In this document: piece after piece, positions 10,738 to 23,775 of the stretch
How positions within the stretch are numbered: the first letter of the stretch is position 1
Layout: each line of letters begins with the position of its first letter
Source: Beijerinckiaceae bacterium
Lineage (GTDB): Bacteria > Pseudomonadota > Alphaproteobacteria > Rhizobiales > Beijerinckiaceae
Reading direction: 5' to 3'
Assembly (NCBI GenBank): GCA_022702015.1
Contig: JAKONI010000177.1
Span: 1-32,729, forward strand
Length of the DNA: 32,729 bases
Made by a program: the position numbers and the translations under genes
The notes under the pieces: generated by a model
What the model saw: the letters and a program-made list of their open reading frames with translations, nothing else
Database searches by the model: none
Told to the model about the DNA's origin: nothing

Positions 10738-11613
10738 TTACCCGACGTAGGGGCTGCCGGTCTCGGCGGGGAAACGGTCGGCCAACGCGCGACGGAGCTT
10801 CTCCAGGGCGCGGTTCTCGATCTGGCGCACGCGCTCCTTCGAGATCCCGAGGCGCTGGCCGAGGGCCTCCAGGGTCGCCTGATCCTCCGCGAGGCGACGC
10901 TCGCGCAGGATGCGCAACTCGCGCTCCGACAACACGCCCAGCGCCTGATGCAGCCAGCCGAGGCGGCGCTCGCCATCCACCGCCGCGCCCACGGTCTCGT
11001 CCGGGAGTGCCGCGCCGTCCACGAGGAAGTCCATCCGCTCCGAGGCGGCGTCGCCATCCTCGCCGATGGGGGCGTTGAGCGACATGTCCGGCCCCGAGAG
11101 GCGGGCATCCATCAGGGCCACGTCGTCGCGCGAGACGCCGATGGCGGTGGCGATCCGGCGGTGGATCTCGTCGCCCACATGCTCCTCGGTGGATTGCATG
11201 AGGCGGGCACGAAGGCGCCGCAGGTTGAAGAACAGGGCCTTCTGCGCGGAGGACGTGCCGCCACGGACGATCGACCAGTTGCGCAGGATGTAATCCTGGA
11301 TCGAAGCGCGGATCCACCATGTCGCGTAGGTGGAGAAGCGCACCTCCCGCTCCGGCTCGAACCGGGCGGCGGCTTCCATCAGGCCGACATGGCCCTCCTG
11401 AACGAGGTCGGCCATCGGCAGGCCGTAGTGACGAAAACGCCCCGCCAGGGCGATGACGAGGCGCATATGGGCGGAGATCAGACGGTGGAGGGCGCGTTCG
11501 TCGCGGCGGTCCTTCCAGCGGACGGCGAGATCACGCTCCTCCTCGCGGGCGAGGAAGGGCGCCTCCATCGCGGTCCGAATGAATTGTCGACGAATTCCCG
11601 CGATCTCGGCCAT
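10738..11613 (-). CDS. rpoH: RNA polymerase sigma-32 family factor
   Basis: Sigma-70 region 2 (LISAHMRLVIALAGRFRHYGLPMADLVQEGHVGLMEAAARFEPEREVRFSTYATWWIRASIQDYILRNWSIVR), RpoH-box-like SSAQKALFFNLRRLR, and region 4 HTH LGISKERVRQIENRALEKLR. Confidence 0.94.
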   Translation of the reverse strand: MAEIAGIRRQFIRTAMEAPFLAREEERDLAVRWKDRRDERALHRLISAHMRLVIALAGRFRHYGLPMADLVQEGHVGLMEAAARFEPEREVRFSTYATWWIRASIQDYILRNWSIVRGGTSSAQKALFFNLRRLRARLMQSTEEHVGDEIHRRIATAIGVSRDDVALMDARLSGPDMSLNAPIGEDGDAASERMDFLVDGAALPDETVGAAVDGERRLGWLHQALGVLSERELRILRERRLAEDQATLEALGQRLGISKERVRQIENRALEKLRRALADRFPAETGSPYVG

Positions 11614-11948: not shown

Positions 11949-12545
11949 TTAGGCTGCCTCCTCCTGAATGTCGTCGCCCTCGGCCTCGGCGTCGCCCTCG
12001 GCTTCCGCCTCGGCCTTCACCCGGCGGGGGGACTTGGCGAGGCTCTGCTCAATCAGCTTCAGGGCCTCGGTCTCGGTGATGCGGTTCACCGACGAGATCT
12101 CCCGGACGATCCGATCGAGGGCCGCCTCGTAAAGCTGGCGCTCGCTGTAGGACTGTTCCGGCTGGGCCTCCGACCGGAAGAGGTCGCGGACAACCTCGGT
12201 CACGGCCAGCAGGTCACCGGAGTTGATCTTCGCCTCGTATTCCTGGGCGCGACGCGACCACATCGTCCGCTTCACGCGGGCACGGCCGGTGAGCACGTCG
12301 AGAGCCTTCTTCACGATCTCCGGCTCGGCCAGCTTGCGCATGCCGACTGAATTCGCCTTCGCGGTCGGGACCCGCAGCACCATCTTGTCCTTCTCGAAGG
12401 ACACGACGAACAGCTCAAGTTTGTAACCCGCGATCTCCTGCTCCTCGATCGCGGTGATGCGACCCACACCGTGGGCCGGGTAGACGACGGCCTCGCCGGT
12501 CTTGAAGCCTTGCCGGCCTGCGGTCGTCTTCTTGGCTGTGGTCAT
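11949..12545 (-). CDS. CarD family transcriptional regulator
   Basis: FKTGEAVVYPAHGVGRITAIEEQEIAGYKLELFVVSFEKDKMVLRVPTAKANSVGMRKLA is the CarD/CdnL RNAP-interacting domain. Start trimmed to MTTAKKTTAGRQGF. Confidence 0.95.
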   Translation of the reverse strand: MTTAKKTTAGRQGFKTGEAVVYPAHGVGRITAIEEQEIAGYKLELFVVSFEKDKMVLRVPTAKANSVGMRKLAEPEIVKKALDVLTGRARVKRTMWSRRAQEYEAKINSGDLLAVTEVVRDLFRSEAQPEQSYSERQLYEAALDRIVREISSVNRITETEALKLIEQSLAKSPRRVKAEAEAEGDAEAEGDDIQEEAA

Positions 12546-12642
12546 GCGTGAAGGGCCTCCACTGGCGCGCGACGCCAATCACACCGCGCGAACCGCTGTT
12601 CCCGGGCGGGTCTACACCCGGTCCGATCGGCGGATCCCAAAG

Positions 12643-12875
12643 CGCGCCATGGGGGCGCGACTCCGAAAGCCGACGAAGCCGGGCACGCGACATTGCCTTC
12701 CGCCGGGTGGAAACCCGGCGGCCGAACACATGCAATCCCAAACAGGGAAATGCGTTTCGGCGCGGAGTGGGCACGTCTGACGCGAGCGACGGCAGGCGGA
12801 TTGTGTACCACAATCCACGCCGCGATCCAAGCTGCTTGGATCGCGGGCACGTACGCCCGAGCCTTCGGACGAAGG
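12643..12875. repeat. Cluster of perfect short inverted repeats in the fdxA-carD intergenic region
   Basis: CGCGCC/GGCGCG (12643-12659), CGCCGGGT-GGAA-ACCCGGCG (12701-12720), GGATTGTG-TAC-CACAATCC (12798-12816), CGCGATCCAAG-CTG-CTTGGATCGCG (12821-12845), CCTTCG-GA-CGAAGG (12862-12875). Confidence 0.75.
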
Positions 12876-13017
12876 TTTTACACTGGCTCGCCGCCCAGCC
12901 TAGGGACCTGATGCGGGGCAGGTCTTCCCTAAGAGCAAGCCAAGGCCGGATTTGAGCGCCCGGACCTGCTGGCCCCCGGGAGTATGGGACCGCCGGGTGC
13001 GGGTTCTCTCAAACTTA

Positions 13018-13356
13018 TCAGTCGCCCGAGCCGGCATTCGCGGAGAAGTGCGCGTCGAGCTTGCCGGACACCCCATCCCACTCCTTCGCGTCGGCGGGGG
13101 CATCCTTCTTCTGGGTGATGTTGGGCCAGCTCTTCGCGTAGTCGGCGTTGAGCTTCAGCCACGTCTCCAGGCTCGATTCGGTATCGGGCTTGATGGCCTC
13201 GGCCGGGCATTCCGGTTCGCAGACGCCGCAATCGATGCACTCATCCGGGTGGATGACGAGCATGTTCTCGCCCTCGTAGAAGCAGTCCACCGGACAGACT
13301 TCCACGCAGTCCATGTACTTGCACTTGATGCAGTTCTCGGTGACGACGTAGGTCAT
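13018..13356 (-). CDS. fdxA: Ferredoxin FdxA (7Fe-8S type)
   Basis: [55 protein letters not shown], a typical FdxA with cluster-binding Cys motifs. Confidence 0.95.
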
Positions 13357-23742: not shown

Positions 23743-23775
23743 AAAACGACCGGCTACCTCGGGGTAGCCGGTCGT
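23743..23775 (-). terminator. Rho-independent terminator downstream of rpmB
   Basis: ACGACCGGCTACC-TCGG-GGTAGCCGGTCGT stem with AAAA on the plus-strand left flank (T-tract on the minus strand). Confidence 0.8.

Follow-up and report, generated by a model that had tools for sequence, protein, structure and literature searches.

Background

The closest described counterparts of the region considered here are the promoters and leaders of carD (cdnL) in other alphaproteobacteria. The mapped cdnL/carD 5' UTRs measure 233 nt in C. crescentus and 266 nt in S. meliloti (Sinorhizobium), and the Methylobacterium locus resembles both in its orthologous gene, its sigma-70-type promoter and the predicted length of its leader (PMC5324124). 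Whereas the text cited gives a leader length for Caulobacter and Sinorhizobium, a specific hairpin with compensatory changes, restricted to the genus, can be described at Methylobacterium carD. In Rhodobacter sphaeroides, the carD promoter is reported to be repressed by CarD itself, an effect that depends on the extended -10 and the adjacent spacer (Henry et al. 2021, cited by PMC8820732 and PMC11034885). The extended -10 (TGn) is common to that promoter and to the present one and is conserved across Hyphomicrobiales. In Caulobacter, CarD falls in starvation and in stationary phase, and its control is partly post-transcriptional, with proteolysis established (PMC11034885). A further parallel is provided by leader RNAs found through comparative genomics, such as Methylobacterium-1 and flg-Rhizobiales (Weinberg et al. 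2010, PMC2864571), which likewise have a covariation-supported structure confined to a narrow clade; unlike those candidates, the carD leader region has no match to an Rfam family.

The region studied here lies in a 32,729-nt window, that is, the whole stretch of Beijerinckiaceae DNA that was analysed. It is best explained, with a probability of about 0.78, as an ordinary sigma-70 promoter of carD carrying a palindrome private to the source genome, together with a structured 5' UTR of about 250 nt that contains a genus-level hairpin, here called P2.

The fdxA-carD region and its inverted repeats

On the minus strand of the window, the gene order is an S4/Hsp15-like gene, fdxA, a gap of 472 nt, carD and a sigma-32 gene. 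The last of these (10738-11613), immediately downstream of carD and in the same orientation, is of the PRK07500 type and RpoH-like.

11949..12545, minus strand: carD (cdnL) coding sequence, 198 aa (Pfam CarD_C 1.8e-24 and CarD_TRCF_RID 1.3e-13)
12545-12543, minus strand: carD ATG
13018..13356, minus strand: fdxA, upstream neighbour of carD (NCBIfam FdxA_Protbact equivalog, 3e-52), with its stop at 13020-13018

carD was found in 110 of the 111 Methylobacterium genomes searched. The orthologous fdxA-carD regions of these 110 genomes and of about 70 other Hyphomicrobiales formed the comparison set; 62 Methylobacterium members were aligned first, and all 110 were then read. The source genome itself belongs to Methylobacterium, and its closest relatives are Methylobacterium sp. 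J-076 (G118; the nearest named record) and G089. Adjacency of fdxA and carD is seen across Hyphomicrobiales, with a gap of mostly about 290-630 nt at the loci examined, and the gap is an old arrangement.

An earlier note on this DNA had pointed to a dense run of perfect inverted repeats before carD. All the repeats that it named were found, two of them longer than claimed (arms of 13 and 9 bp).

12820..12846 (arms 12820-12832/12834-12846), no strand assigned: perfect 27-bp palindrome with 13-bp arms and a 1-nt centre (13+1+13), overlapping the -35, private to the source genome
12798..12816 (arms 12798-12805/12809-12816), minus strand: perfect inverted repeat with 8-bp arms, GGATTGTG-GTA-CACAATCC, over the extended -10, its end near the start site
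12700-12708/12713-12721: perfect inverted repeat with 9-bp arms, loop GGAA on the plus strand and UUCC in the carD transcript
12643-12659: inverted repeat with 6-bp arms
12862-12875: inverted repeat with 6-bp arms, CCTTCG-TC-CGAAGG

Dinucleotide shuffling of the 472-nt gap (400 trials) gave a mean of 0.14 perfect repeats with arms of at least 8 bp per shuffle and never three at once (0/400); an arm of 13 bp was reached in 0.25%. The inverted repeats are confirmed to be present and to exceed chance. Their conservation in orthologous carD upstream regions is very unequal, and the cluster comprises three distinct elements and not one array, with two on the promoter and the third a hairpin of the leader RNA. 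The suggestion of an operator array did not hold up: the repeats are unrelated in sequence, and no repeated similar sites of the kind that make up the operators of a regulon were found at carD or elsewhere in the genome. Among the repeats it is the stem with the GGAA loop that matters. The two adjacent longer repeats, which had been thought the hardest to dismiss, both belong to the promoter and fall outside the leader RNA; the longer of them is the single element without conservation.

The carD promoter

A near-invariant promoter, TTTGAT-N16/17-TGTGnTA, occupies the fdxA-carD regions of the 110 Methylobacterium genomes and the roughly 70 other Hyphomicrobiales. The pattern TTTGAT-spacer-GTGnTA was matched in 101 of the 110 genus genomes, several of the remainder reading TTTGCT in the alignment, and the conserved block of the genus runs TTTGAT (or TTTGCT), 16-17 nt, GTGnTA and then GCCGTCG. 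The arrangement TTGATT-spacer-TTGTGnTATA is also found in Bosea, Bradyrhizobium, Rhizobium, Kaistia, Ancylobacter and others.

12825..12830, minus strand: predicted -35, TTGGAT, with a 17-nt spacer to the -10 (in the relatives TTGATT within CTTTGATT)
12802..12807, minus strand: predicted -10, TACACA, extended TGTGG, without -7T
12793..12797, minus strand: predicted transcription start zone, placed from the promoter position, about 7 nt after the -10

The extended -10 sequence is TGTGGTACACA. Elements spaced 16-18 nt apart, as at sigma-70 promoters, are thus conserved upstream of the orthologs, and the zone from about 12798 to 12846 appears to be an ordinary housekeeping sigma-70 promoter of carD with an extended -10. 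A scan with the sigma-70 consensus did not pick it up, because its hexamers are non-canonical. Absence of -7T is usual in alphaproteobacteria (PMC8407463) and has been reported in Methylorubrum (PMC9320726). The extended TGn expected of a promoter autoregulated by CarD is present, and, by analogy, autoregulation by CarD at the carD promoter of the source genome is plausible. The assignment of the region to the promoter or 5' leader of carD is borne out.

Two further observations concern its surroundings. The sequence GTGTAAAAC at 12875-12883 (minus strand), located about 45-55 nt before the -35, is shared by the nearest relatives and many genus members (GTGyAaAAC) and is possibly a UP-like or regulator site. 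Just past the predicted start (12785-12793), the first transcribed bases read GCCGTCG in Methylobacterium and Microvirga, and CAGTCG(AA) at the same position in Bosea, Ancylobacter, Kaistia and Roseibium (e.g. L093, L094, L096, L099, L104, L107, L125).

The leader hairpin P2

12687..12731, minus strand: conserved hairpin P2 of the leader, with its core stem at 12700-12721 and a UUCC loop, covarying within the genus

The stem reads CCGCCGGGU-UUCC-ACCCGGCGG in the source genome and differs in sequence in other species, e.g. CCGCUGGAGGC/GCUUUCGGUGG. Across 41 distinct sequences, two-sided changes occur in 12 of the 16 pairs, and the cells are paired in 86.8% as against at most 50.4% in slid registers; 43 cells carry a two-sided change, compared with a shuffled mean of 16.6 and with none of 500 shuffles as high. 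The covariance model built on P2 (R1) scores 35.8 bits in the source genome and matches 89 of the 110 genus leaders (E <= 0.01), 41 of the 89 having built the model and matching by construction. G-U pairs are frequent, and scores on the carD strand far exceed those on the opposite one, which shows that the RNA is read together with carD. The covariation across orthologs proposed earlier as a check is therefore found at this GGAA-loop stem, a helix on the same strand as carD, and the idea of a structured regulatory leader stands for that part of the region.

The model has no match in one clade of 20 Methylobacterium genomes, and nothing convincing was found with it upstream of carD in other genera; P2 is thus not required for carD expression in general. 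As a wider RNA family P2 was rejected, since the model found nothing convincing upstream of carD beyond Methylobacterium. Overall, P2 appears to be a new, genus-restricted structured element of the 5' UTR, and it probably adjusts the translation of carD or the stability of its mRNA.

The remainder of the leader

From the position of the predicted promoter, the carD 5' UTR is predicted to span about 250 nt. Apart from P2, it has the following features.

12768..12793, minus strand: P1, GCCGUC...GACGUGC at the predicted mRNA 5' end, sequence-invariant
12602..12621, minus strand: hairpin P3, CCGGGUG-UAGACC-CGCCCGG, 88.6% paired in 35 sequences
12562..12594, minus strand: P4, a G+C-rich hairpin just 5' of the Shine-Dalgarno sequence, 97.6% paired
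12556..12560, minus strand: carD Shine-Dalgarno sequence GGAGG, 10 nt upstream of the ATG and almost without variation in the alignment

P1 is uninformative for pairing because its sequence does not vary, and its local fold is no better than that of shuffles. P3 and P4 are consistently paired and weakly covarying: P3 has no two-sided change in the 35 sequences and a local fold z of -3.2, and two-sided changes occur in two of the six pairs of P4. For the full leader, all five structure measures lie above nearly all shuffles. Folding against shuffles, a check the note had also put forward, gives z -5.0 for the whole 472-nt gap but z -2.3, with 7 of 200 shuffles as good, for the stretch that follows the predicted start; the two palindromes of the promoter region account for much of the excess of the gap. 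Over 23 species, leaders fold mildly better than shuffles, with a mean z of -1.4 compared with -0.3 for carD coding controls. The consensus fold suggested that a conserved 5' CCUCC sequesters the distant Shine-Dalgarno GGAGG; as a general feature this pairing was rejected, because single-sequence folds support it in only 12 of 110 leaders and it has no two-sided change.

Alternative readings

Could the dyad on the extended -10 be a true cis-element in its own right, either bound by a dimeric repressor or, as a hairpin- or cruciform-prone sequence, modulating open-complex formation, and not a by-product of the promoter? This appears rather unlikely, though worth keeping in mind. The 8-bp dyad is made up of the extended -10 together with the sequence flanking it downstream, and its left half is invariant because it is the extended -10 itself. 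Of the 80 distinct genus sequences, 19 keep Watson-Crick pairing perfect at positions 2-7, and among these are versions in which both sides differ; ATTCGTG-CTA-TACGAAT and GATCGTG-CTA-TACGATC are examples of such double changes in the genus. About three quarters of the distinct sequences, however, lack the perfect core. The Watson-Crick share in the genus reaches 49.4%, as against 43.4% in shuffles (0/500 as high) and 20-30% in slid registers, the shuffle tests being inflated by the relatedness of the sequences. In a set of 30 diverse carD promoters, arms taken from one promoter pair better than arms exchanged between promoters when Watson-Crick pairs alone are counted (p 0.0026), but this cross-genus test fails once G-U is allowed (p 0.30). 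Finally, the dyad has one site per genome, at carD, and is therefore not the operator of a regulon.

Comparable arrangements were seen in other genera. Two Bradyrhizobium carD promoters (L102, L108) have arms AATGTGC/GCACATT around a -10 TATATT, and a third (L105) has AATGTGT/ACACATT, a two-sided change that parallels the Methylobacterium dyad; in two Microvirga carD promoters (L088, L090), the -10 is flanked by CAGAC/GTCTG and by CGGAC/GTCCG, respectively, again a two-sided change.

The 13-bp-arm palindrome might be an operator acquired recently at the -35, one that adds a repressor input to carD of the source species; we regard this as improbable. A perfectly symmetric 27-bp sequence that overlaps the -35 would be a fitting target for a dimeric repressor, and arms of this length are rare in shuffles, as noted above. 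Against this, no second copy was found in the source genome with up to 2 mismatches allowed, and the palindrome is absent in the closest relatives, J-076/G118 and G089, though these match the source genome almost completely between the -10 and about 12675; conservation in close relatives, a further check proposed earlier, was thus not found for this repeat. Only in the source genome has CTTTGATT become CTTGGATC, and the -35 has been remodelled: the closest relatives have TTGATT-16-TACACA, the source genome TTGGAT-17-TACACA. Being absent in those relatives and single-copy, the palindrome, which is known from a draft assembly (85% complete, 422 contigs), appears to be a lineage-private change and not a conserved operator. 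Template-switch mutation at near-palindromes, moreover, usually leaves a perfect mirror (PMC7954356), and such an origin would fit both the perfection of the palindrome and its private, clustered substitutions; it is not provable, since no sufficiently close relative was found. Elsewhere in the window, a second perfect repeat with 13-bp arms, ACGACCGGCTACC-TCGG-GGTAGCCGGTCGT, lies at 23746-23775, apparently intergenic and without a T run.

Very improbable, in our view, is the broader idea that hyphomicrobial carD combines a pairing-capable dyad of changing sequence on its own extended -10 with a structured leader, forming a two-layer CarD feedback device that senses structure and not operator sequence.

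That the region encodes an independent small RNA, instead of or besides the carD leader, is scarcely to be expected: conserved hairpins and a promoter of its own are present, but the stretch from promoter to ATG has no intrinsic terminator on the carD strand, conservation runs on up to the Shine-Dalgarno sequence, and an Rfam search of the region at gathering and relaxed thresholds returned matches at chance level only. With no intrinsic terminator before carD, as an attenuator or a riboswitch with terminator would have, attenuation by intrinsic termination is likewise unlikely.

Proposed mechanism and significance

In the preferred reading of promoter and structured leader, transcription would start near 12795, and the mRNA would carry P1-P4. 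The zone from about 12795 to 12545 would form the structured 5' UTR, in which P2 is best supported, followed by P3, P4 and the Shine-Dalgarno sequence. The leader would act after the start of transcription by setting carD mRNA stability or ribosome access, and could thereby let CarD, a cofactor of RNA polymerase, follow the growth state. Either layer, the leader hairpins or autoregulation by CarD, could act at carD.

The locus also carries a caution, as the most striking palindrome is the least conserved, and a modest repeat is the genuine RNA element. Long carD leaders were already known from two species, without a structure attached in the cited part of the text (PMC5324124). Since CarD/CdnL probably assists activation at the many alphaproteobacterial promoters without -7T, the way in which its amount is set would affect much of the transcriptome, and a covariation-supported hairpin together with a precise promoter provides defined bases for mutation.
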